The notes: generated from the sequence alone by a model not told the origin. A stretch of DNA of 64,000 nucleotides from an uncultured Nitrosomonadales bacterium (GCA_903915035.1 CAIWRI010000078.1:1-64000); one strand, 5' to 3'; positions 49,977 through 64,000 are shown, counted from the first letter of the stretch. Made by a program: numbers and translations.

Positions 49977-52007
49977 CTATTCCACACCCAGCGCCTTGAA
50001 CACTGCATCCACGGGATCTGAGTAAAAACTGGTCTGGAATTTTGCAAACAGTTCGCCGGGTACGGTTGGAATATCGGTCACGCTCGACATCGGCAGCAAG
50101 ATACGTTTAGCACCGGCATCAAATGCCACCTGCAAACTTTCTGCCAGGCTGCGTGCCTGTGTAATGGTACCGCCCAGACTCATATCGCCCATCACAACCA
50201 TTTGGCTTTGCATCGATTTGCCCAGTGTTGCCGAACACAGTGCAATGAAGTTGGCGAGCGTCAATGTTTCTGGCGCGCCGGAATTTTGCAACTCGACCAA
50301 ATGTAGATGGTAATCATGGTCTCCGGGCTTGATCGCCCCGCTCACCCGTGACGCATGCGCTTTGAAATAGTCGAACGCCACACGCGATGGCTCTCGGGAA
50401 TGATTGCCGGAAATTGACAGCTTGCCATTGCCGGCGATAGACTGAATTTCCAGTCGATACACACCCGGCATACCATTGACACCGATACTGATGGTGTGCA
50501 ATGTCCCCGGGTTGGGTCTGCCGTCCGGAATCAGCGAACCACCGCCCTGTTCCGGAACCGATATAAAGCGTTCCTGCCCGTCTTCCAGATCAATGTAGCT
50601 GAAATGAACATCGTAAAACTCCATACCGCCGATTTTCTTGAGCTGTTCTTTTATCCGGCGACGTGTTTCAAGCGCATATTCCAGCGCACGGCGCACGCTC
50701 TCCTTGTCGTAAATACCATGAGGACAAGTTAATTTGAGCAGACCGGACACGGTACGACGCACCGCAATCGTATCGCGCTGATTCAGGTTATTACCTAGCT
50801 TGAACCACTTGTCGATGGCATCGGCAAAACTGCGCTTACGCATCTCGCGCATCCATTCCGCCAGATAGTCCACGATCATGCCGTACTGGTTAGTGAAAAA
50901 TTCCGGACGCATTTTGGGGATTTCCCAGCCGGGTACATAGGCATGAAACCGGTCAAAGAAGGCCGAATCAATCATCGCAGTCGGGAACGGTTCCAGCAGA
51001 TGACTGGTTTTAACCATCTGTTCAACTGACTGATTGATGTTACCGACGAACACCATGGACGCGCTGGCATTAATTGATTCACGCCCGCGCGAGAATGAGC
51101 CGCTAGCCATGTAGTCCTTCATGATCTGAATGCCGTCTTGTTCCTTAAAGTTGATACCCGCCACTTCATCGAACGCGACCACATCCCATAAGCCGACCAG
51201 ACCGATCTTGCGCGAACCCATGTTGTAGAACAGATTGGCGACCGTGGTTTGCCCGCCGGACACCAGAATACTGTTCGGGCTGATTTCCTTGTAGATATGA
51301 CTTTTACCGGTGCCACGCGGACCTAACTCACACAGATTGTAGTTGTTTTCCACCAGCGGAATCATGCGTGCCAGTAAATGCCATTTCACCCGCTGAGTAA
51401 AACAGGTAGGCTCCATTCCGGTTGAACGGAGCAGTCCGTCTATCCATTGTTCCCCGGTAAAGCCTTTACGTGCTTCGAACAACGCCTCCATATCCATGTT
51501 AGGCATTTGAATCGGCTTCAAATCCGATATCGAAAACGGTGACCCCTTCTGATTCTCCTCGAAATGATAGCGAATCGTCACGATGCACCAGATTCCGCCG
51601 ACCAGCAGCTTCTCAAAATTGCGCACATCCGAATCAGGAATCTCCGCATCCCGTATCGACAGGTTGGATAGCATCGCCTCGTAGGTATCGCGCTTCTCGT
51701 TCAGCTTGACCGTCACCTTGTCGATGACCTTATAGCTGCCACTCTCGCGGATCTTCGACTTTATCTTCTCCGCTTCATCCGGACGAACGTAGTTTTCCGC
51801 CAGCACCCGCTTCACATTGGTCAAACCTGCCTCGATGGTCGCCGGATCATCGGATGCACAATACATGCCGAGTAAATATTCCAGCACATAGACAGGCACA
51901 TTTGCGCCTTCCTTGATAAGCTTGGTCAGATCCTTGCGGACCACCTTGCCGGGTAGAAATTCGTTCAAAAGCGCATCAAGGCTTTTTTCCTGATTCGAAT
52001 CTATCAT
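49977..52007 (-). CDS. brxL: BREX type 1 Lon-like protease BrxL
   Basis: LGPRGTGKSHIYKEISPN; C-terminal Lon-like MSLGGTITQARSLAESLQVAFDAGAKRILLPMSSVTDIPTVP; 676 aa; adjacent to pglZ. Confidence 0.93.
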   Translation of the reverse strand: MIDSNQEKSLDALLNEFLPGKVVRKDLTKLIKEGANVPVYVLEYLLGMYCASDDPATIEAGLTNVKRVLAENYVRPDEAEKIKSKIRESGSYKVIDKVTVKLNEKRDTYEAMLSNLSIRDAEIPDSDVRNFEKLLVGGIWCIVTIRYHFEENQKGSPFSISDLKPIQMPNMDMEALFEARKGFTGEQWIDGLLRSTGMEPTCFTQRVKWHLLARMIPLVENNYNLCELGPRGTGKSHIYKEISPNSILVSGGQTTVANLFYNMGSRKIGLVGLWDVVAFDEVAGINFKEQDGIQIMKDYMASGSFSRGRESINASASMVFVGNINQSVEQMVKTSHLLEPFPTAMIDSAFFDRFHAYVPGWEIPKMRPEFFTNQYGMIVDYLAEWMREMRKRSFADAIDKWFKLGNNLNQRDTIAVRRTVSGLLKLTCPHGIYDKESVRRALEYALETRRRIKEQLKKIGGMEFYDVHFSYIDLEDGQERFISVPEQGGGSLIPDGRPNPGTLHTISIGVNGMPGVYRLEIQSIAGNGKLSISGNHSREPSRVAFDYFKAHASRVSGAIKPGDHDYHLHLVELQNSGAPETLTLANFIALCSATLGKSMQSQMVVMGDMSLGGTITQARSLAESLQVAFDAGAKRILLPMSSVTDIPTVPGELFAKFQTSFYSDPVDAVFKALGVE

Positions 52008-52016
52008 CGTCCGTTC

Positions 52017-54620
52017 CTAAAAATCATTTGAAAACGCCAGATCCACGCGCAGCGGCAGGCGCATCACTTCCACCTTGGTTTGCACATCACGCGCTATCAG
52101 GAAATAATCTTTGTTGCGGTCATAGCTTCCCGATCTCACGGTCAGAATCACGGTGCGTTTACGGCTATCCATCAAATCCGAATCGCTATCAAAGGTCAGC
52201 GATTGCTCGTCACTGATAAATTCCTCGCCATCGCGCAGAGAAATCTGCACCATGCGTGGCAGTATGCGTGCTGAAACAGCCTCATCCTGAATAAACTCGA
52301 ATCGTTGCCGGTTAGTCACCACTTTAATCGACGCACCTAGGATACTGAAGTTTACGAAGCGCGTCTTTGCCTTATCCGATTCACTGGCACGCAAGGTAAT
52401 CACCGGCACAACCACTTCCTGCGGCATCGCACTACCATGCACAAATCGCGCACCACCGGCAAAATGAAAACGTGCAGCCCCCTTGGGCAACCAGAAGTCC
52501 ATACTGCCGTCGCCGGGCTCAGTGCCCGCCGTGACCGATGTGTTTCCACACCAGGCTTTACTGTTCACGCCAATACCTTGACCTATCAAATAGCGTTTTT
52601 TAGCTTTCAATATGCCAGCAGGCTTTTCATCCAGCGTCGATTTATCTGCAACTTCTAGCGCCGACTCCTGATACATAAAGCCGTGATCTGCCGTCAGTAA
52701 AACAACCGAACCATTCAGGCTGTTGATGATGAAAGTAGCCAGCCTTCCCAACTCCTCCAGCGCATCATTAACCGCTGCAAAGGTCTTGGTCTCCGATGCC
52801 TGCTTATCACCGATCATGTCAATCAGGTCGTGGTAGATATACACCAGTTGCTGGTCACGAACGAATTCACGCCCCTTGTCTTTACCCAGTGCCAGCAAAT
52901 CTTCGGCTTTAATCGCCACGCCGCCATATTTCTCAAGATGAGCATTACGTTGTTCGCTGGTCGAAACGATAACGCCATCTGCACTTAAATCGCAATTGCC
53001 ATTCAGTTTATATGCCAGCTTGTTATGAGGCAGCAGCGATGCCATACCCAACGCAGTGTAACTTGGCAGCACGCCGAGCATGGCCGACAAGGAAGCCTTC
53101 AGACGGTTGCGGCTATTGATGATTCGCGTCAACTCTTCGGCGGCCTCGTAACGGAATGCGTCCGAAATCACAACGAACACCCGCTTTGCGCCACCGTCCA
53201 GCACGGGTTTAACATGCTTTACATAGAAGTCAGGCTGATTGATTAGCTCTTCAACTTTCCACTTTCCTAACAGACCATTTTCACCTTCCAGCACTTTGCA
53301 CCATGCGGATGTCAGTTGCGGAATAAACCAGCCGGAATAAGCACTTTCAATCCGTTCAATCAATTCGTGCAGCACAGCCCAGCCCATCGGTTCAACAGCG
53401 GAAGCAGCAAAATTGAACTGACGATACAGTTGGTCAAAACGAAAAAGTTCAGTTTGATACGCCGTCAATCCTTCGGTTGCATTGGCAAAACTGAATCCTG
53501 CCTCATGTGCGGCCTTTAGTTCAAAGAAGCCGTGTGCCGCTTCCAGCGCATCATAGCTCGCAGCCAGTGCGCGGGTAATATCGTTATCCTGAGCCAGCAG
53601 GCGATTAGCCCAATGACCATCGCGGCGGCGCGCCATCAACGAGCGTACTACATTCGATTCAGCGCCCGAGGCGGCGATAATTTGATCCTTGATATGCTTG
53701 ATGATGCGCTGCTCAACCACCGCGAAGGTCATCACATCAGAGAGTGCCGCGCCTGACAGACTACCCAGCATCCCGGCAATATCCAATTCTTTGGCTATCT
53801 GCTCAGACAAGGCGTTATAGCTGGCAAAATGCGCCATATCTGAACGCCACCGGGCAACGAATACCGCTGCATTCGCTGTTTTATTGGGCAAAACGAAATG
53901 AGCGAGTTGACCGGGGCAATTGCCGGACAATGAGCGTGTAAAATCCGTCACCAGCAAGTGAATCAATAAGTCCGGCAATGAAGGCGTGGATTGGACGTAG
54001 CCAAACTCACACTCGATATTTGACCAGAGGGCCAATTCCAGCTCATTACCCTGAATCTCCAACCATGGCCGGGACTCAATATTCAAGTCAGCCATGCCTT
54101 CCACCACCAACCCTGAAAACAAACGAAGCAATATCGCTGTCAGTTCAGGTTGATCCGCACGCGCCAGCACCGCCAGCATCTTGCGGTCGATATCTTCTGC
54201 CGTATCGGTTGGCACGACCAGTCGCTTGAGTTTCTCAACACGATCTTTAGCGCGCAGAAATTTGGCACGCAGCTTCAAATGCGCTCGCAATGTTTGCGAT
54301 GTCAACCCCAAGTCTTCCAGCAGAATGGATGCGGCATCGGCACTGAACGATTTGCTGCGCAGGCGAATGTCCAGCAGCCAATCTTTGGTGAGTTCAGGTT
54401 CCGGCTTATTGCTGTAGAGCAGCCATTTTTGCTTTGGTGCGTGTTCGATATCCAGCTTAACTTTGAGCGCAGGAAGATTATCAGTGCGCACTACCTGTAC
54501 GCCAGGCAATGGAAGGCTATCTACGACAGATGAAAATTCGGCATCGACATCGTGCCAAAACACCACGGCGTTATTAGCATACAGTGCAGAAAGGGAGTCT
54601 ACGATTCGTTGAGTGCTCAA
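52017..54620 (-). CDS. pglZ: BREX phosphatase PglZ
   Basis: RVFVVISDAFRYEAAEELTR and NGSVVLLTADHGFMYQESALEV; 867 aa. Confidence 0.93.
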   Translation of the reverse strand: MSTQRIVDSLSALYANNAVVFWHDVDAEFSSVVDSLPLPGVQVVRTDNLPALKVKLDIEHAPKQKWLLYSNKPEPELTKDWLLDIRLRSKSFSADAASILLEDLGLTSQTLRAHLKLRAKFLRAKDRVEKLKRLVVPTDTAEDIDRKMLAVLARADQPELTAILLRLFSGLVVEGMADLNIESRPWLEIQGNELELALWSNIECEFGYVQSTPSLPDLLIHLLVTDFTRSLSGNCPGQLAHFVLPNKTANAAVFVARWRSDMAHFASYNALSEQIAKELDIAGMLGSLSGAALSDVMTFAVVEQRIIKHIKDQIIAASGAESNVVRSLMARRRDGHWANRLLAQDNDITRALAASYDALEAAHGFFELKAAHEAGFSFANATEGLTAYQTELFRFDQLYRQFNFAASAVEPMGWAVLHELIERIESAYSGWFIPQLTSAWCKVLEGENGLLGKWKVEELINQPDFYVKHVKPVLDGGAKRVFVVISDAFRYEAAEELTRIINSRNRLKASLSAMLGVLPSYTALGMASLLPHNKLAYKLNGNCDLSADGVIVSTSEQRNAHLEKYGGVAIKAEDLLALGKDKGREFVRDQQLVYIYHDLIDMIGDKQASETKTFAAVNDALEELGRLATFIINSLNGSVVLLTADHGFMYQESALEVADKSTLDEKPAGILKAKKRYLIGQGIGVNSKAWCGNTSVTAGTEPGDGSMDFWLPKGAARFHFAGGARFVHGSAMPQEVVVPVITLRASESDKAKTRFVNFSILGASIKVVTNRQRFEFIQDEAVSARILPRMVQISLRDGEEFISDEQSLTFDSDSDLMDSRKRTVILTVRSGSYDRNKDYFLIARDVQTKVEVMRLPLRVDLAFSNDF

Positions 54621-54725: not shown

Positions 54726-55304
54726 TTAAGAGCCAACCAATTTGATAAATTCATCATGAAACAGCTTCACGCTTGGGCAAGCTGGATGTTCAGCAGCACT
54801 GGCAATCGTAAAGCCATAATGTTTGCACATTTTTTTTGCGAATCCCGGCTTGTTACTACCCGGGCCACGTCTTTCTTTCTCTTTAGCTAGTTCCTTCAAT
54901 CGGTCCCAGGGCATCCCGACAGTATCTTCTGGCAAGTCTTCCTGCACATCCGGTAGTTTCAGCCACGATTGCAAAGCTTTACTATCCGCCAGAAACCAAG
55001 CTTCAATGGCCTTCACAGCAACAAAAATGAGATTGGTATGTTCCGTGCCAATGCGTTCCGTCACCACTGCAACACTTGATGCATTTTCAAGGTCAGTCAA
55101 AATCACAATATGATCCGGGCTTGAACGCTTTAGTTGTATTACCATCGGAATAATATTCTGTGGTAAAAGATTACCACCTCCTTTAGCATCAATCACGGGC
55201 GAGCAAATTTCGATGCCTTGGCTTTTGGCCCAGCTTTGAAAAGCGGGAGATTCCACTACAATTTTTTCAGTGTCACCCTCCACGATAAAACCTACTTTTA
55301 CCAT
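54726..55304 (-). CDS. TOPRIM/DUF4276-like protein, partner of the upstream ATPase (cassette 1)
   Basis: VKVGFIVEGDTEKIVVE...HIVILTDLENASS...KAIEAWFLADSKAL. Confidence 0.65.
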   Translation of the reverse strand: MVKVGFIVEGDTEKIVVESPAFQSWAKSQGIEICSPVIDAKGGGNLLPQNIIPMVIQLKRSSPDHIVILTDLENASSVAVVTERIGTEHTNLIFVAVKAIEAWFLADSKALQSWLKLPDVQEDLPEDTVGMPWDRLKELAKEKERRGPGSNKPGFAKKMCKHYGFTIASAAEHPACPSVKLFHDEFIKLVGS

Positions 55305-56410
55305 GGCAAACCACCATCAAAGAAGTTCATCAGCCAAGCAGTATCAAGGTTTAAATTACCAAGATCACCACTATGCTGTGCGGCATTTTTAACCACTGTC
55401 TTACCATCCTCTTTATTGACCAACCAAAGCTCCTCTTTGGTGGAAGCTCGAACCAAAGACTCGCTGTGCGTTGTCACTAATACAGGATGCTCTGAGCTGG
55501 CATTATCCCGCATCAACCGTACAAGTTCCGCAATGGCCTTCGGATGAATACCACGCTCAGGCTCTTCAATCAGCGTCAACCCATATCCCTTGGCACGACT
55601 TAGCACAGCAGCCATGATGCACAGCGCATAGATTGTTCCATCTGAAATCAAATTTGCCGGAAAATGTGCCTTTGTACCCTCCTCCTTAAACTTGATGATT
55701 GTTCTTCCATCCAAGCGTTGCTGTTCTGTGCCAACACTTTCCATTCCGGGAACCAGCAACTCCATCCAATCTATAATTTCAGAACGGATTTCCGTATTTT
55801 TTTCCAATGCAGCCAGGATGGTCGCCACATTATGACCAAACGGACTCAATTCACTACCATCGGTACTTGAAGCATCCGGTTCCTTTGCGCCCAAGGGATC
55901 GAACCTAAATACGCGAATATTGATCAAGTATTGGTAAAGTGCTGACTGGGGTAATAACATCAAGCCTGACATTTCCGAAGGAAAGTTCGGTACTTGGACC
56001 AAGTTTCCATCAACCGCTTGCACCTGAGGAGGCTCTCCTTTCTTTCTAAGTAATACGGGTTTGCCATCAATTAACAACTTTTCCTCAAGCGATGGCATGG
56101 TATCCATCTCATGAACCTTCAAGGTGTAGTCAATACGTTCATCCGTCATGCTCGCAACAATAGAAAACTCAAATGTGCGGGCGTTATTCCCCCGGAGTTT
56201 GTAGCAGTGCAACTGAGGATATCCATTAAACTTACGTATGGCTGCACTTGCTCCAGATTGAATAACTAGACTAACGAAGGCTAGTGAATCCGCTAAATTA
56301 CTTTTTCCAGCCCCATTGGGGCCAGCCAGAACGCTATATGGTGAAAGTTGCGCAAGGGATAAATTGGCGATACTTTTAAAACCGCTGATCTTGATCTGCT
56401 TAATTTTCAT
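55298..56410 (-). CDS. RecF/OLD-like AAA ATPase (cassette 1)
   Basis: IKISGFKSIANL, LAGPNGAGKSNLADSLAFVS, LTLIEEPERGIHPKAI, VLVTTHSESLV. Confidence 0.88.
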   Translation of the reverse strand: MKIKQIKISGFKSIANLSLAQLSPYSVLAGPNGAGKSNLADSLAFVSLVIQSGASAAIRKFNGYPQLHCYKLRGNNARTFEFSIVASMTDERIDYTLKVHEMDTMPSLEEKLLIDGKPVLLRKKGEPPQVQAVDGNLVQVPNFPSEMSGLMLLPQSALYQYLINIRVFRFDPLGAKEPDASSTDGSELSPFGHNVATILAALEKNTEIRSEIIDWMELLVPGMESVGTEQQRLDGRTIIKFKEEGTKAHFPANLISDGTIYALCIMAAVLSRAKGYGLTLIEEPERGIHPKAIAELVRLMRDNASSEHPVLVTTHSESLVRASTKEELWLVNKEDGKTVVKNAAQHSGDLGNLNLDTAWLMNFFDGGLPW

Positions 56411-56565
56411 TCTTCTTCCTTTCCGCCCGTCACCGCTTTTACATCAGATAATAAGTCGCCAAACTTGCCGTAATTTACCTTAACGCCATCGTCCAGATCC
56501 AGTTGGATGCGCATGTCGGCATAGTGACGGAGCTGTTCGTCGAAGTTGGTCTGTGATTGACTCAT
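56407..56565 (-). CDS. Standalone duplicate of the PglX C-terminal tail (tail copy 1)
   Basis: MSQSQTNFDEQLRHYADMRIQLDLDDGVKVNYGKFGDLLSDVKAVTGGKEEE*; ATG overlaps the previous gene stop (ATGA) and its stop overlaps the next ATG (ATGA). Confidence 0.8.
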   Translation of the reverse strand: MSQSQTNFDEQLRHYADMRIQLDLDDGVKVNYGKFGDLLSDVKAVTGGKEEE

Positions 56566-57380
56566 GCCAGCAACCCCATTGCCTGCCATAGAACATTCAG
56601 GTCAGCGGGCACCGTACGTGTTCGCAAAATGGCAAGGCGACGCTCCTTTGCCGGCTTTTGGCCCAGCAGACGATTCAACACCTGATGCACGACCTGCGGA
56701 TAAAAGTCTTTCGCATAAAGCCATTGGGCACAGAGTTTGCTCACGTCTTCAGAAGCCAGCTTTGCTTCCAAAGCATGCACACCATTCAAAACCGCATCGG
56801 CATCCAGTGTTCCATGCCACTCCTTGAATTTGACTCTAAGTGCAGCATCGTCCGGCATGGGCGGACTGCCAAGCACCGCATCAGGGAAACCCATGTTTCG
56901 AAGCTGTCGCCACAGCGGACGAACACCATGCCAAAGCGCTGCATGCCTCACCCAACCCTGCAGATCAGTCAATAACTCAAGACGAAACTGTGCCTCGCCA
57001 CCTGCAATCTTTGCCCGTTGCTTTTCCGGGAAGGCGGCCCACAGTTCCGGCGGATCAATCAGATAACTCTCAAGACAAAAGCGCGGCAAGACCGACAGGT
57101 TAGGACACGCAGCCTGTTTCTCTACAATATCTGCCTCAGTCCATTCATCACGGTCAACCAAGCCCTGCCAATGTGGCTCCTTCATTAACATCTTGACGAC
57201 ATCAGACTTGTTGCCAGCGGCGACCAGAAGCCATGTCTTTTCCCATTCAGGAAACTTGCGCCCCAGGAAAATGCGAAACGCATCGACATCATCGGTTCCC
57301 TCAACCAGAAGGACACGCAGGCCGGCTTTTCCAATGAACTGCGTTTTGATCTGCTTGATGCGCTCCTCCAGCGCACTCAT
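56562..57380 (-). CDS. DUF4435/TOPRIM-like protein, AriB-like (cassette 2)
   Basis: GLRVLLVEGTDDVDAFRIFLGRKF...VLPRFCLESYLIDPPELW. Confidence 0.65.
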   Translation of the reverse strand: MSALEERIKQIKTQFIGKAGLRVLLVEGTDDVDAFRIFLGRKFPEWEKTWLLVAAGNKSDVVKMLMKEPHWQGLVDRDEWTEADIVEKQAACPNLSVLPRFCLESYLIDPPELWAAFPEKQRAKIAGGEAQFRLELLTDLQGWVRHAALWHGVRPLWRQLRNMGFPDAVLGSPPMPDDAALRVKFKEWHGTLDADAVLNGVHALEAKLASEDVSKLCAQWLYAKDFYPQVVHQVLNRLLGQKPAKERRLAILRTRTVPADLNVLWQAMGLLA

Positions 57381-58432
57381 GTGACGCCCCCAAGCTCAAT
57401 ACGCTTACCGGATGCCTCGTAACGCTGCCATATGTCAGGCTGATGGGACGTAATGATAAGTTGCCCGCCAATGTCCGCCACCAACTTTTCAAGACTGGAC
57501 AACAAGCCATTCACCAAGGAAGGGTGCAGATACAAATCCGGCTCGTCAATCAGAATCACCGCACCTTTTTCCGCCCAGCGTGCCAGCAGGTACAACAAGA
57601 TCAACACTTGGTGTTCTCCCGCGCTCAAATCATCCAGTCCATGCGATTGACCACGCTTATTTTTTAACTTCACACTTAAACGGTTTTCACCGGGTTGAAT
57701 GTCCGGGTCTATCTCTTTTCCTGACAAAAAACCATTCAGCAAGCGAACAATCTCGTGGTACTTGTGCAACTGTGTGGTTTTGAGCGTAATGAGGTAGGCT
57801 TCTAACTGATCCTTCCAATCTTCACTCGCCAGGTACTTGGGCAACCAACGCCTGCCTGGTAACTCAGCTGTGTGATCGCCTACATTACGCCGTGCAGCAA
57901 CCCAGCGACGTTCCTCAGCATCCAAAAACACCACGTTAGGCACATCCACCTTATCGAATGACAAGATCATTTTTTTGCGCGCATCGGCCCACTCTTGAAC
58001 CCACGGTTCTGATGGAAGAAAAACTTCCCGTTTTGGGTTGCCCGGCTTACCTGTGCGTGCTACACCTTCACCCAGCCATTGCACATCGGTGTGCTGGGAA
58101 CGCATGGACTCACACCAAGCCAAGTCACCAAAAATCAACCCTATAACTTGACCATCGCTTGGCACTCCACTCAACACCACGGCACATCCACCCCAGCGTT
58201 GCAGCCACTCGCGAGCCACATGACTTTTAGGAAGTGACTTACGCTGATCCAACCAAAAGCCCAATGCGTCCCAAAGCATTGCCACTGCGCGCAATACGGT
58301 GGATTTACCGCAACCATTGGGGCCAGACAGCAAAGCGCGGGCTTCAACACTGTCGTCCCAATCGTTGACGAAGTTGATACAGTTGTCACCAAACGGCCCA
58401 ACATCCTTGAAATACAAAGAGTTAATTTTCAT
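57377..58432 (-). CDS. AAA ATPase, AriA-like (cassette 2)
   Basis: LLSGPNGCGKSTVLRAVAMLWDALG, LDDLSAGEHQVLILLYLLARWAEKGAVILIDEPDLYLHPSL, LIITSHQPDIW. Confidence 0.85.
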   Translation of the reverse strand: MKINSLYFKDVGPFGDNCINFVNDWDDSVEARALLSGPNGCGKSTVLRAVAMLWDALGFWLDQRKSLPKSHVAREWLQRWGGCAVVLSGVPSDGQVIGLIFGDLAWCESMRSQHTDVQWLGEGVARTGKPGNPKREVFLPSEPWVQEWADARKKMILSFDKVDVPNVVFLDAEERRWVAARRNVGDHTAELPGRRWLPKYLASEDWKDQLEAYLITLKTTQLHKYHEIVRLLNGFLSGKEIDPDIQPGENRLSVKLKNKRGQSHGLDDLSAGEHQVLILLYLLARWAEKGAVILIDEPDLYLHPSLVNGLLSSLEKLVADIGGQLIITSHQPDIWQRYEASGKRIELGGVT

Positions 58433-58641
58433 TCTTCTTCCTTTCCGCCCGTCACAGCTTTTACATCAGATAATAAGTCACCAAACTTACCATAATTCAC
58501 CTTCACACCATCATCAAGATCGAGCTGGATGCGCATGTCGGCATAGTGGCGAAGTTTTTCGTCATAGGCTAACAGCTCGACGTGTTTTTTGCGCATTGTC
58601 GCACTATTGAATATGCTGCCTGAAGTAGCCCATTTATTCAT
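58429..58641 (-). CDS. Standalone duplicate of the PglX C-terminal tail (tail copy 2)
   Basis: MNKWATSGSIFNSATMRKKHVELLAYDEKLRHYADMRIQLDLDDGVKVNYGKFGDLLSDVKAVTGGKEEE*; stop overlaps the next ATG. Confidence 0.8.
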   Translation of the reverse strand: MNKWATSGSIFNSATMRKKHVELLAYDEKLRHYADMRIQLDLDDGVKVNYGKFGDLLSDVKAVTGGKEEE

Positions 58642-58649
58642 GGCATGGA

Positions 58650-59390
58650 TCAATGAATGACTTCACTTAATGCACGCTCCAACTCCAGTTTAAATGCCTT
58701 GAAACTTGGCATAAACGAGGCTCTCGCTTCATCTATCGGGTTCTCGTCCAACCACTCACAGAGTTCATTGGCGGATTTATGTGCGCCGAATGCCGCATCA
58801 AGTTTCTTCTTGGGATGATTGGCAGACTCTACGTTGCCCGGTAACTCTTCGAGTTTGCGGCAATTTTGATAAGGTTTATTTTGTGCGGCACACAATAACC
58901 AAGCTTCCGAAGTCGGCTTTGGTAGCATTGGTACACCTCTGGAAAATTCAGCCCTGTTAAATCCATTCACCATAGCGTCCCACTTCGTCTCCCAAATTCC
59001 AGACATGGTAGATCGCGTTCCATCGCAGTCACGAAACAGCACGGCAAGAACCTGATCTTCACGTTCAGATTCAATTTGCAAGGCAATATCCGCAAGCATC
59101 CATGCGTTGATGTAAAAATATCCAGTTTCTTGAGCTCGTTTTTTACCAACGAAGGAAAAACTTCGATGCTCTTTCTTGCGTGCTTCCTCTCGCTCTTCTA
59201 ATGCGGCCTTACCAACATATTGATATCCACCCGGTATAGAACACAACGAGTAATCCAAACGAGATTCAAGCATCTGATCCAAGAGCACAGTCATAGGGCC
59301 AATCTGCAAGTCTCCATCCGAACAATTGCCCTGAGCATTATTACATTGCCCCAAATCGGTTGGGCCTTCCCCACTCAACACGACAATCAT
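58650..59390 (-). CDS. DUF4276/TOPRIM-like protein (cassette 3)
   Basis: MIVVLSGEGPTDLGQ...VLAVLFRDCDGTRS...PKPTSEAWLLCAAQ. Confidence 0.6.
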   Translation of the reverse strand: MIVVLSGEGPTDLGQCNNAQGNCSDGDLQIGPMTVLLDQMLESRLDYSLCSIPGGYQYVGKAALEEREEARKKEHRSFSFVGKKRAQETGYFYINAWMLADIALQIESEREDQVLAVLFRDCDGTRSTMSGIWETKWDAMVNGFNRAEFSRGVPMLPKPTSEAWLLCAAQNKPYQNCRKLEELPGNVESANHPKKKLDAAFGAHKSANELCEWLDENPIDEARASFMPSFKAFKLELERALSEVIH

Positions 59391-60559
59391 TCCTTGGCCT
59401 CTGCCTCGGCACGTTGCCTTTCGGCGAAATCATCCGCGTCATCCAGCGCGATACATTCCTCGGTAAGCTGTACCAGGTCGGTATCAACAAATGCCTCACC
59501 TGCGCCCATAAATTTGAGCTTCTTCCCAATGTTCGGAATCTCAAAGAACCGGCGTATGCGGCTTAAGCCAGCGGTATTCTTATAGACGTACTGTACAGAC
59601 TTCCGCGCTTCATCATCTTCCAAATAATTCAAAATCATCGGACTATGTGTCGTCACAATAATTTGCTGTTGAGCATTCACTAATATATCAACCAACTTTT
59701 CGATTATTTCAGGATTGATGCCATTCTCGATCTCGTCCAGCAAAACTAGCGGATGATCAGATTCTGCCTGAGCCAAAATCGCTAATATTCGCAACACCCC
59801 ATCGCTCAAGTGCGTTGCTTCCGTTTCCAGAGTTTGTTCTCCGAACTGTTCAACCACCATGAGTTTTTTCCAACCAGCCCGCATACTTGCAACCCTGAAG
59901 TCAATCAGATTTGGGTAAAACAACTTTAATAACACCAGTAAGTGAGCTTTCGCATCTCCTTTTATGTTATGTAGGAAACCAGAAAGTTTTTCCCCACCCG
60001 CACCGATGTCCTTATCATCTGTTCTTGCACGCTTGCGCAGCAAATGCGGAGAAAGTAACTCCAACGAACGGGTACGTCTGAGTACATCACGAAATTCCAG
60101 AATTGATGGCGGAAGCTCACTATCCTTGAGTTGAGAAATAATTGAGCCTTGAAAAATAAATGAAATTGGCTGTTTTCGTCCTTCAGTGTGGTACTCGTGC
60201 CCACGGGAAGTAAAAATAAGTTCATTATCTAATTGGACTCTTTCCCACGAACAGCGCAAGTCAGAGCGGTTAAAGCCAGCATGCCAATTCAGAAGTTGTC
60301 CCGCCTGAGTACGATATTGGACTCGTATGAGTATATTGCTTGCCTTGAAAAGTTTGCAGTTCAAATCCTGTGCTGTCCAGCCACGGGAATCCAGCCAACT
60401 CAATACATTGCCAGTCATTAACTGAGAAATGAAATCGATCCCTTGGAGTATCGTGCTTTTACCCACCCCATTCATCCCGATAAAACAATTGAATTTACTG
60501 AGTGGAAAAGCCAGATTTCCAGCAGACTTAAAATTGGTTATGAATATATTTTCAATCAT
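59387..60559 (-). CDS. RecF/OLD-like AAA ATPase (cassette 3)
   Basis: IFITNFKSAGNLAFPL, CFIGMNGVGKSTILQGID, PLVLLDEIENGINPEII, IIVTTHSPMILNYL. Confidence 0.87.
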   Translation of the reverse strand: MIENIFITNFKSAGNLAFPLSKFNCFIGMNGVGKSTILQGIDFISQLMTGNVLSWLDSRGWTAQDLNCKLFKASNILIRVQYRTQAGQLLNWHAGFNRSDLRCSWERVQLDNELIFTSRGHEYHTEGRKQPISFIFQGSIISQLKDSELPPSILEFRDVLRRTRSLELLSPHLLRKRARTDDKDIGAGGEKLSGFLHNIKGDAKAHLLVLLKLFYPNLIDFRVASMRAGWKKLMVVEQFGEQTLETEATHLSDGVLRILAILAQAESDHPLVLLDEIENGINPEIIEKLVDILVNAQQQIIVTTHSPMILNYLEDDEARKSVQYVYKNTAGLSRIRRFFEIPNIGKKLKFMGAGEAFVDTDLVQLTEECIALDDADDFAERQRAEAEAKE

Positions 60560-63500
60560 CAGAACTACCTCCAGTCACTGCTTTTACATCAGATAATAAG
60601 TCGCCAAACTTGCCGTAGTTCACCTTCACGCCATCGTCCAGATCCAGTTGGATGCGCATGTCGGCATAGTGGCGGAGTTTTTCGTCGTAGGCTAACAGCT
60701 CAACATGTTTCTTGCGCAGCACTTCGATTTGTTTGTTGATCTTGTTACGGGCAGCGGTCACAGTGGCGGCGTCACGATCCTTGGTCAGCATCTCGATACG
60801 TGACTGGATTTTACTGGTCAGCGGCACGACATATTCGGCGCGCATCCGCGCAAGGGTGCCTTCGTGATAACGATGCAGATAGACCAGTGCCTGAAACGCT
60901 CCTTGCTTACCGCTGGAGAACAGCCAGTAGATCGGGCGTTTCTTGTACATTTGCAGGTGATTCTTGTAAAAGCTGGTCGCGAGATAACGGCGGATAGTTT
61001 CTTCCAATGTTTCGTTGCCCTTCATACCCAGACTTTCCGCCAACCACTGTAGATTAGTGGCAAGTAGTGAGTGGTTAGTGGTCAGTGGCGAGTGGTCAGA
61101 AAGACAGTGGTCAGTGGTCAGTGGCGAGTGGCCAGAAAGACAGTGGTCACTAATCACTGTTTCTCCACTAGTCACTGAACACTGGTCACTAATCACTGCT
61201 TCTCCACTGGTCACTGAACACTGGTCACTAATCACTGTTTCTCCACTGTTCACTGTTTCTCCACTGTTCACTGTTTCTCCACTAATCACTGTTTCTCCAC
61301 TGTCCACTGCCTTGTCTCCCCATACGGCCAGCAGGAATTCGCTGATACGATTAGCGGCATCATCCTCAAACCAGAACTCGTCGGTAAGCGGCACGATACC
61401 ATCGGCGTCGGCGGGGAACAGATTTTGTAGGGGCGAATTCATTCGCCCTTGGGCGGATAAATCCGCCCCTACCCCATTGTAGATTTCCCAGAACCGTTCA
61501 TTTCCCGAATGCGCGTAAATCAACCCCGGCCTATCCAGTCGATACCGCCCCATCATGCAACCGATAGCATAGGAGATCAGGCGCTGGCAATCTTTCTCGC
61601 GGTCGGCACGAGCGAGGGTGATCTGTTCTTCGGGAACTTCGGGGGACAGTTCGTCTTGCAGACCGTAGGCTTCGATGAAAATGCGGTTGTTTTGTTCTTC
61701 CAATGTTTTCGTTATGCTAATATTGTCATTTAACACTAATAGCCAACTATTCCACGTCGCCTCAATACTTTTGCATTTTATGGGGGTTGCCACCAAAGGG
61801 TTATAAATATAATCCCATGAAGTTTCTACCCAATCCCAGTCTTGTTTCGCTAAATCAACAATTGTTGAAGTATTGGATTCAATTTCTTCAAAATAGGGTT
61901 CCAGTAAAGTTAGATTAAATGGCAATGCTGCGATATTACCTGGCTGAAAATTTAAAGTAGGGTTTATAGAACACAAAAATTCAAACGTCGGTTTTGCAGA
62001 CAAAAATGCCAAAACGAGATTGTGAAATTTTTCATCAGGAAATGCTGATGAGCCACCATTATCAAACAAAAAACCTTTTTCGCACTTTCGAGCACTAAAG
62101 AATGCTGAAGTAACTGCTGACCAAGTTACTGACGGCTTGAAATACTTGTCCCTATTAATTATTCGTCCGGTAGAGTTAACCTTCGAGCCGGACACTAAAT
62201 CTATATAGTCACATATTGTTTTTCCATTATTTTCATAATTAATGACATACATATTGTTGCCATACCATTTTTTAAAACCACCACCTTTATTGTATGGAAA
62301 AAACTTCTTATTACTTGCAAGTGCTTCCGGTGCAGTCCCATAACCAAATCCTATTTTCTGGATAGAAACCTCAGACCAATTTCGAACAAATAATTCATTC
62401 TTTGTTGTGTTCATCCCCGCACAAGGTCGAGTGAAGGCACCTAAAGAAGAGCTTTTTTCAAATATGTCACGAACCGCATGCCCTAACCAATATGCCACAG
62501 GACTTCCCGGAATTTTTTTAAAATCATCCGGCTTCACTATTTTGAGACGATTATTTTGAACGGGAAATTTTAAAGGAACCCCCTCTTCGTTTACATCATC
62601 ATTTTTACAGTATGAAAAGCTACCCTCATAAGCATCAATGTGCTTATTCCAAAATATGGTAGCAGCGGTACCAAATGCAATGCCCATTACCCCATTGCCC
62701 ATATGTACCATACAATAGAGCGTTTTTTTACCTAGTAAATTATTCCGCATCACTTCAAACGACGACAAGAACATCCAGCTCTGCATCGTTACCATGCTAT
62801 TCAAACCTGTTGCTTTGCACCAACCAAAGCCACGTTCGATAAACATAGCAAACAAATCAGCCTTACTATTTGGAAATCGCTCCCCTGAAAAACTCTTTAA
62901 CTCAGGGTTCATCCCCTTACCGCCCATATACGGCGGATTCGCTACAACAGCATCAAACTGCATTCCCAGAACTTTCGCCTGCCCAACCAGCGGCAACAAC
63001 TGTTGTACTGCCGACTCGGAGAGCAGATCGCCGTTCTTGATAGCCAGCTGCAAGCTCTCCGCCATCGTCGCCAGTTTTACATTCAACGCCTGCGGGATTT
63101 GTATCAACGAGCCGAAGGTCTTTGCATGAGTGAAGGTATCGATCAGCATGCGTACGGCTTGAGCTTCCTCAGACACGGCACGGACGGAGCTGTTTGATTT
63201 CAATGCTGGTGACTCGTCAAAGCTCATTTGCGGACGACTGCCGGGAAAGAGATCGTCATCCCCGAAGCCACTCGTTAACGCCTTTGCGGACAAGGGAAAT
63301 AAAGCCTGAACGATTGCATCCACATCCAGCCCACGACTCTCCTGCAAAGCCAGCACATTGAGAGTTGGCGGATTATCGAGCAGACGGCGATCATCGGCAC
63401 GAGCCTTCATCAGCAATGCAAATCCAGCCAGTTGCGCGGCGCGATCATCGATATCCAGACCGAAAAGATTCTTTTCCAGAATCAGACGGGGAATGTCGCG

Positions 63501-64000
63501 TAAACGATAGCCGCGTTCCAGATAGATACCCTTCAGTACCTCATATCCTTCAACCAAAATGTGACCGGAGCCGCAGGCAGGATCGAGCATCGTGATAGTT
63601 TCAGGATTCAGACTGCCGCCATCTTCACCCATGCGAGTCTGAATAAGCGCATCCAACTGAGCCTGAACTTCCGGCGTTTGCTCGGCAGGTTCTATGTAAT
63701 AAGCCCATTCACTCTTCAGCGTTGAAGCAGGATTCGCCATCAACCACAGGCGACCGACGCTGTTTTGCACAAGATATTTAACAATCCAGTTAGGGGTAAA
63801 TAGCTGGGTGGCGGCGGGAATATCCTCGCTCTTAACCACTTTGCCGATCACTTCATCCTTCTTCTCACTGATGTAAAACTGGTACAGCCAACCGATAATC
63901 TCGACTTCCTGCCAGTCTTCTTCGGGAATAGCAGCTACCAGCTTGGCGATGACTGAATCAGTGCGCAACAGATTGTCCGGCAACAGCAACTCGGTTTCAT
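60552..64000 (-). CDS. pglX: BREX adenine-specific DNA methyltransferase PglX (5' part beyond the window)
   Basis: LDPACGSGHILVEGYEVL and VVANPPYMGGKGMN; frame remains open to the window edge past the ORF-track TTG. Confidence 0.93.
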   Translation of the reverse strand, partial: ETELLLPDNLLRTDSVIAKLVAAIPEEDWQEVEIIGWLYQFYISEKKDEVIGKVVKSEDIPAATQLFTPNWIVKYLVQNSVGRLWLMANPASTLKSEWAYYIEPAEQTPEVQAQLDALIQTRMGEDGGSLNPETITMLDPACGSGHILVEGYEVLKGIYLERGYRLRDIPRLILEKNLFGLDIDDRAAQLAGFALLMKARADDRRLLDNPPTLNVLALQESRGLDVDAIVQALFPLSAKALTSGFGDDDLFPGSRPQMSFDESPALKSNSSVRAVSEEAQAVRMLIDTFTHAKTFGSLIQIPQALNVKLATMAESLQLAIKNGDLLSESAVQQLLPLVGQAKVLGMQFDAVVANPPYMGGKGMNPELKSFSGERFPNSKADLFAMFIERGFGWCKATGLNSMVTMQSWMFLSSFEVMRNNLLGKKTLYCMVHMGNGVMGIAFGTAATIFWNKHIDAYEGSFSYCKNDDVNEEGVPLKFPVQNNRLKIVKPDDFKKIPGSPVAYWLGHAVRDIFEKSSSLGAFTRPCAGMNTTKNELFVRNWSEVSIQKIGFGYGTAPEALASNKKFFPYNKGGGFKKWYGNNMYVINYENNGKTICDYIDLVSGSKVNSTGRIINRDKYFKPSVTWSAVTSAFFSARKCEKGFLFDNGGSSAFPDEKFHNLVLAFLSAKPTFEFLCSINPTLNFQPGNIAALPFNLTLLEPYFEEIESNTSTIVDLAKQDWDWVETSWDYIYNPLVATPIKCKSIEATWNSWLLVLNDNISITKTLEEQNNRIFIEAYGLQDELSPEVPEEQITLARADREKDCQRLISYAIGCMMGRYRLDRPGLIYAHSGNERFWEIYNGVGADLSAQGRMNSPLQNLFPADADGIVPLTDEFWFEDDAANRISEFLLAVWGDKAVDSGETVISGETVNSGETVNSGETVISDQCSVTSGEAVISDQCSVTSGETVISDHCLSGHSPLTTDHCLSDHSPLTTNHSLLATNLQWLAESLGMKGNETLEETIRRYLATSFYKNHLQMYKKRPIYWLFSSGKQGAFQALVYLHRYHEGTLARMRAEYVVPLTSKIQSRIEMLTKDRDAATVTAARNKINKQIEVLRKKHVELLAYDEKLRHYADMRIQLDLDDGVKVNYGKFGDLLSDVKAVTGGSSDD
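61053..61311. repeat. In-frame variable short repeat block (18-, 36- and 39-nt units) inside pglX
   Basis: AGTGGTCAGTGGCGAGTGGTCAGAAAGAC... and CACTAATCACTG(T/C)TTCTCCACT... units; encodes GETVNS, DHCLSxHSPLTT, SDQCSVTSGEAVI repeats. Confidence 0.9.
61427..61472. repeat. 46-bp double-hairpin palindromic repeat inserted in-frame in pglX
   Basis: GTAGGGGCGAATTCATTCGCCCTTGGGCGGATAAATCCGCCCCTAC; encodes GVGADLSAQGRMNSPL. Confidence 0.85.

Follow-up and report, generated by a model that had tools for sequence, protein, structure and literature searches.

The last 14 kb of the window (the whole stretch of 64,000 nucleotides analysed here, from an uncultured Nitrosomonadales bacterium) hold a type I BREX operon on the - strand. 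In the direction of transcription, the gene order is brxA, brxB, brxC, an AbiEi/AbiEii-type pair, pglX, PDC-M25A/B, a standalone copy of the pglX 3' end (tail 2), an AriA/AriB-like pair, another such copy (tail 1), HEC-01A/B, pglZ and brxL. The part from brxA to pglX lies partly outside the window on the same contig. The features in the window are as follows.

60552..64000, - strand: pglX, BREX-1 adenine methyltransferase, 3' part (NCBIfam NF033452, 1201 bits; PADLOC PglX, 1261 bits)
60567..60716, - strand: tail copy of pglX itself, the last 50 codons before the cassette-specific tip SSDD (repeat and tblastn match)
59387..60559, - strand: PDC-M25A, AAA/OLD-type ATPase, start codon 8 nt inside pglX (PADLOC PDC-M25A, E 7e-159)
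58650..59390, - strand: PDC-M25B partner (PADLOC PDC-M25B, E 6e-98)
58429..58653, - strand: standalone tail 2 ORF, homology 58444-58598 (repeat, tblastn, ORF)
57377..58432, - strand: AriA-like ATPase, PARIS-like (PADLOC AriAB/AriA, E 6e-27 / 6e-21; PDB AriA 8ux9, E 4e-9)
56562..57380, - strand: AriB-like partner (PADLOC AriB, E 6e-12, residues 22-120)
56407..56565, - strand: standalone tail 1 ORF, homology 56422-56550 (repeat, tblastn, ORF)
55298..56410, - strand: HEC-01A ATPase (PADLOC HEC-01A, E 4e-161)
54726..55304, - strand: HEC-01B partner, DUF4276-like (PADLOC HEC-01B, E 7e-85; Pfam DUF4276, E 2e-6, slightly under the cut-off)
52017..54620, - strand: pglZ, BREX-1 type A (TIGR02687, 986 bits)
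49977..52007, - strand: brxL (TIGR02653, 1138 bits)

The operon was classified as type I BREX because pglX, the type A pglZ and brxL exceed their NCBIfam cut-offs and the ORFs upstream correspond to the brxA, brxB and brxC orthologues of related loci. The full pglX gene encodes 1323 aa and extends past the window to contig position 64523; its part in the window matches the PDB entry for PglX/BrxX (8c45, E 3e-276). About 80 extra residues, built of short repeats (SGETVISDQCSVT...), are inserted in frame into pglX at window positions 61056-61310, precisely where aligning it with the solved PglX leaves a break (query 896/977, chain residue 1052). The two subunits of PDC-M25 and of HEC-01 lie side by side, each matching its own PADLOC model. 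The AriA-like ATPase is related to the solved AriA (8ux9), and the PADLOC AriB match of its partner spans 100 of 272 residues, with no Pfam domain at 1e-3; we call this pair putatively PARIS-like and withhold the full PARIS label. The gap between brxC and pglX forms a second cargo bay (contig 60001-71894; L010 4747-6326; L numbers are our labels for the loci compared), which holds the AbiEi/AbiEii-type pair in the window locus and in Gallionellales-type relatives, and DUF262, M25A/B or other genes in L011, L080, L095 and L139. The same genome contains a second, divergent BREX (G000:C134, L018), in which pglX is split (747 + 662 aa) around an ORF of 989 aa and a Schlafen-like gene and an AAA pair lie ahead of pglZ.

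A repeat search of the window returned one family of three direct repeats of 171 nt (56403-56573, 58425-58595 and 60548-60718), with the outer copies 76% and 85% identical to the middle copy; across the shared core, the DNA identity among the three tails is 82-92%. A tblastn search of the whole genome with the 50-aa tail gave three strong places, all on the - strand: 60567-60716 (100%; the open frame of 1327 aa that is pglX), 58444-58593 (100%; open frame of 77 aa) and 56422-56547 (93%; open frame of 64 aa). The sole further match (46%) was to the end of the second, divergent pglX on another contig. Both searches agree with the reading made earlier from the sequence alone (the sequence-only reading), in which the pglX 3' end is present three times, once in pglX and twice standing alone, and each copy does end, as claimed there, at the start codon of a different ATPase (M25A, AriA-like and HEC-01A). 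The standalone tails differ from pglX by 14 synonymous and 0 nonsynonymous differences over 30-33 codons; since the three tails differ almost solely at synonymous sites, chance likeness is excluded. Their tips differ, pglX ending in SSDD and both standalone tails in KEEE. The M25A gene overlaps pglX by 8 nt, and both standalone tails overlap the gene that follows (AriA-like or HEC-01A) by 4 nt (ATGA). At the opposite end, the tail 2 ORF begins on the stop codon of M25B (TTGA, TTG 58653-58651) and the tail 1 ORF on that of the AriB-like gene (ATGA, ATG 56565-56563); the ATG at 56565, which lies within the ORF reported earlier, is probably the functional start of tail 1. A breakpoint test of tail 1 against tail 2 of the window was not significant (p 0.15).

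Other loci were collected by a genome-wide tail-alignment scan, by random sampling of four bacterial families and by adding a few loci from plasmids, which amounted to 110 distinct loci once duplicates were removed, and a tail match in a short closed frame was scored as a standalone tail. Such tails occur in 12 of the 91 loci with pglX and pglZ on one stretch, a proportion that describes this sample, drawn by similarity to the window tail, and is not an estimate for all BREX. Standalone tails were detected in L022, L038, L049, L050, L051, L063, L065, L069, L096, L102/L103, L123 and the window, and also in L045, where pglX is otherwise lost. The tails of L102/L103 belong to a divergent PglX group and have a sequence of their own, and the process is therefore not limited to one clade. 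Standalone tails are concentrated in loci with a pglX-pglZ gap of at least 4 kb (9/24 vs 3/67 with a smaller gap, p=2e-4) and were found in 0/29 loci with a gap below 1.5 kb. When the last 60 residues of each core gene were searched in the same way, a second C-terminal copy was found for pglX in 12/110 cases and for the five other core genes pooled (brxA, brxB, brxC, pglZ and brxL) in 0/363 (p=1.5e-8), by which a general duplication of core gene ends was rejected. A one-off duplication or an assembly artefact was likewise rejected, because standalone tails are seen in unrelated genomes. The sequence-only reading had named absence of the tails from other loci, or their random placement, as speaking against it; neither is the case, since they recur and sit between cargo modules. 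Its proposal that the number of tails equals the number of cassettes minus one holds in the window and in L022 but fails in L021, L056, L062 and L070, which have several cassettes and zero tails.

The tail search in E. coli gave 368 places in 367 records and 366 genomes, so second tail copies are nearly absent there; in the E. coli-group loci that were opened, the pglX-pglZ gap mostly holds one pair or is empty. The corresponding search of plasmids gave 229 places in 228 records. In L045 (6873-12073), the brxC frame is cut at 1071 codons right before a tail frame of 64 codons, which is followed by M25A/B and an intact pglZ and brxL. An Enterobacter plasmid (L013, 5869-6165) carries a pglX 3' remnant annotated as a hypothetical protein, then pglZ and brxL, with an adjoining IS5 copy.

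The start sites of the cargo genes are closely tied to the pglX end. The next gene overlaps pglX by 1, 4 or 8 nt in 52 of 94 pglX genes. M25A has an overlap of -8 in 10 pglX copies and 2 standalone tails, the AriA-like gene one of -4 in 5 pglX copies and one standalone tail (plus L071), and HEC-01A one of -4 in one pglX copy and one standalone tail; each cassette keeps its own overlap, behind pglX and behind a standalone tail alike. A Shine-Dalgarno sequence (dG <= -5) lies inside the last codons of pglX for 54/54 next genes whose start does not lie beyond the pglX stop, and inside the tail for 7/7 standalone tails with overlapping starts, compared with 12% of control sites (p=2e-29; mean dG -8.95 at pglX ends vs -2.39 at controls). 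A cassette moved off pglX without the end piece would lose its start signal. On the upstream side, the tail frame begins on an NTGA overlap with the preceding stop, in the correct frame, in 9/12 usable cases (p 0.004), or 10/13 if L038 is included (p 0.002), which suggests that a standalone tail may act as a translational relay between pairs.

Every tail retains its stop end, and the 5' limit of homology is variable: the longest tails span about 50 codons and the shortest are mere tips of 7-12 codons (L030, L049 and L065), the tip being retained throughout. The 5' boundary differs in nearly every locus, fixed recombination-site boundaries are absent, and no integrase was found in the window cargo or in the family-scanned cargo proteins; an integron or site-specific integrative element was rejected on these grounds. 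The tails of L038 and L051 are joined to the opening ~25 codons of pglZ at a common GACGGC(G/A)AGTTC patch, and L123 has a decayed form of this fusion; a search of the tail prefixes for the starts of known genes gave recognisable results only for these pglZ fusions. Some tails are decayed (L096, L099, L100 and L123). The idea that older tails are shorter agreed with the window, L049 and L051 but not with L065, and was dropped.

Standalone 5' heads of pglX are present in five loci, where they lie in the brxC-pglX gap ahead of the full pglX, with other genes between. L063 has residues 1-91 of pglX and a further partial copy, L096 has residues 1-150, L040 1-52, L098 1-31 and L049 39 aa; the cases counted as heads are those verified by self-alignment, the N-terminal control having given numerous artefacts where ORF starts were over-long. 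Heads retain the start and lose the 3' side, and tails retain the stop and lose the 5' side. Both patterns would be expected of a pglX-homology anchor combined with an illegitimate join in the leftover end of the old pglX.

The modules M25A/B, AriA/B-like, HEC-01A/B and PDC-M38A/B (AAA + DUF3226) recur in the bay in varied order, as do a YhcG-type PDDEXK nuclease, a Schlafen/AlbA protein, a zeta-toxin-like kinase, Fic and a large sacsin-like protein. The order is M25-tail-Ari-tail-HEC in the window, Ari-tail-M38 in L022, and HEC-tail-M25-YhcG-Schlafen-(12-codon tail remnant)-Ari-YhcG in L049; the string tail-c32-Ari is common to L063 and L065, after different first cassettes. The cassettes flanking a tail are unrelated to each other in every case. 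Many stacked multi-cassette loci are without a tail, and some second-position cassettes have their own start region and no tail. Two E. coli loci that share ~90% identity over pglZ and the 3' part of pglX have unrelated pairs between these genes. The breakpoints fall at the stop of pglX and the start of pglZ, and no tail is left; plain tail-less exchange therefore also occurs. M25A and pglZ co-vary (Mantel r 0.88) to about the same degree as the core genes do with one another, unlike the YhcG-type module, whose correlation with the BREX core phylogeny is weak (r 0.16); since M25A largely co-varies with the core, the cassettes are not all freely exchanged. The loci fetched included no two near-identical genomes that differ in the presence of a tail, and no insertion was caught.

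Whether a tail moves together with its cassette was judged from the 3' half of the tails. The L049 tail that precedes M25A is closer in this half to the pglX tails of L051 (0.94), L063 (0.90) and L055 (0.88) than to its own pglX (0.81), and these three nearest pglX tails themselves precede M25A. The 3' halves of the L049, L063 and L065 tails are nearer to foreign pglX tails than to their own pglX; the tails of L069, L096 and the window (in the window, the 3' half) are nearest to their own pglX. The three tails of the window are more alike mutually in the 3' half than to any outside tail. Their common 3' half would fit gene conversion or in-place duplication as well as import, and, being unseen elsewhere, points to local homogenisation. 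In a pooled test of all pglX tails, 3'-half similarity tracks the next cassette weakly (p 0.05), and the effect vanishes at deep divergence. Decayed tails were also observed outside BREX (L099 8738, L100 8935, L014 7882 and L015 8411, oriented coordinates): in L099 and L100, a tail remnant followed by M25A/B lies behind an RND efflux operon; in L014, a tail remnant with M25A/B lies beside a MoxR-type gene; and the relative L015 has the remnant alone.

The sequence-only reading had cassettes entering behind the pglX stop by homologous recombination through the conserved tail, each bringing its own tail. In part, the tail does travel with its cassette: the modules are permuted, tip and overlap geometry follow the cassette, and tail and M25A/B occur together outside BREX (L014, L099 and L100). 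The route proposed there leaves both the non-homologous junction upstream of each tail and the pglX heads unexplained, and the clean exchange in E. coli and the co-variation of M25A with the core speak against exchange borne by tails in general. One homologous and one illegitimate end would fit the junctions better than purely homologous recombination.

On balance, the standalone tails are probably the displaced ends of earlier pglX genes, produced by pglX-anchored loading of cargo and now serving as scar and translational relay. What follows on the source of the incoming DNA, the way it recombines and the selection that retains the tails is inferred. The pglX-pglZ interval would be a cargo bay, and cargo would arrive on DNA that also bears pglX. 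One end of the incoming piece would recombine homologously within pglX, and the other would join within what is left of the resident pglX end, with a short stretch of homology or none. The new cargo would then lie right behind a (hybrid) pglX, and the older cargo would retain the stop-side remnant of the former pglX; a join on the upstream side would instead leave a start-side remnant, the head, ahead of the new cargo. Retention of the tail's stop end would be due to the Shine-Dalgarno sequence and start codon that it holds for the first gene of the displaced cassette, and also to the in-frame start at the preceding stop, which would let ribosomes pass from pair to pair. Homology-facilitated illegitimate recombination after DNA uptake is known from laboratory transformation assays; with a homologous anchor and a short-homology join, it would yield both heads and tails, and is put forward here as a proposed route only.

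Tails could also be the old junctions of in-place tandem duplications, formed when the pglX end crosses over unequally with the pglZ start, with the copies later replaced or diverged. The fusions of pglZ start and pglX tail (L038 and L051; decayed in L123) resemble such junctions, and the tails nearest to their own pglX (window in the 3' half, L069 and L096) are as expected; the cassettes on either side of a tail are, however, unrelated in every case, the heads would require a second, separate type of duplication, and the L049, L063 and L065 tails are nearer to foreign pglX tails in the 3' half. Tandem duplication explains single cases, not the flanking unrelated cargo or the heads, and we consider it unlikely as the general origin.

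Two further explanations concern what the tails do. A free C-terminal piece of PglX might be a functional small protein that binds a BREX partner or the neighbouring ATPase, given that the tail ORFs are open, in frame and have coupled starts, and that the window tails differ from pglX at synonymous sites only; relaxed selection was not evident either, with a ratio of nonsynonymous to synonymous differences not above that of pglX tails (18:63 vs 157:657, p 0.56). This is improbable in view of remnants of down to 7-20 codons with the tip alone left, the shortest of which cannot fold as a piece of PglX, of changes at near-invariant pglX residues (C, C and A in L049, L063 and L069), and of the absence of a tail from most multi-cassette loci. 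There is about as little reason to regard the tails as passive scars, neutral leftovers of recombination with no role in translation: variable truncation, decay (L096, L099, L100 and L123) and the second-position cassettes with their own start region and no tail would be in keeping with this, but in-frame NTGA starts are above chance, and tails that overlap the next gene have kept its Shine-Dalgarno sequence and start codon.

The presence of cargo between pglX and pglZ is itself known. Accessory defence genes at this position in type I BREX have been published, PARIS in Salmonella included, and BrxU is listed as the commonest of them (PMC11341690, PMC9009780, PMC12839542); genes lie between pglX and pglZ in ~7000 of ~9000 genomes with linked pglX and pglZ (PMC11341690). 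The published accessory genes resemble those of the window in the pglX-pglZ bay, the OLD/AAA ATPase-nuclease pairs and PARIS. Within the text searched, these papers describe no repeated pglX tails, no pglX heads, no start-inside-pglX rule for cargo and no loading mechanism. In the openly licensed papers that were searched, pglX tails and heads likewise do not appear as scars, and neither this scar architecture nor a coupling of cargo starts to the inside of pglX was found.

The closest likeness is to the orphan cdiA-CT/cdiI and rhs modules, which are serial displaced modules carrying core-gene fragments (PMC3150448). In both systems, displaced modules of two genes, each with a variably truncated core fragment, form an array behind a core gene, and the orphan CDI/Rhs fragments, like the pglX tails, offer homology for recombination. 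Serial displaced modules headed by a core-gene fragment are present in the window, L049, L051 and L065; there is no exchange of a C-terminal domain, and the array begins with a full-length pglX. In CDI/Rhs, by contrast, it is the core protein's own C-terminal toxin that is exchanged, and orphan fragments are usually without start signals, whereas in the window pglX is whole, the cargo genes lie separately downstream of it and their start signal comes from the fragment.

More tentatively, pglX may be a two-sided loading dock, with 'pglX end + pair' as the moving unit and the pglX end as a portable translation start; we regard this as possible, with the odds somewhat against it. If true, BREX loci would be self-extending arrays in which pglX heads and tails record past loading, and tailed units could exit BREX and land elsewhere, as with M25A/B behind the RND efflux operon in L099 and L100. 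Most type I BREX loci have extra genes between pglX and pglZ, and tails and heads make their loading traceable from sequence. The start-inside-pglX rule explains the exact position of the cargo and its expression in step with BREX. Short ORFs ending in the PglX C-terminus provide a search key for new defence pairs, including pairs outside BREX, and the recurring scars hint at a route by which nested defence islands grow.
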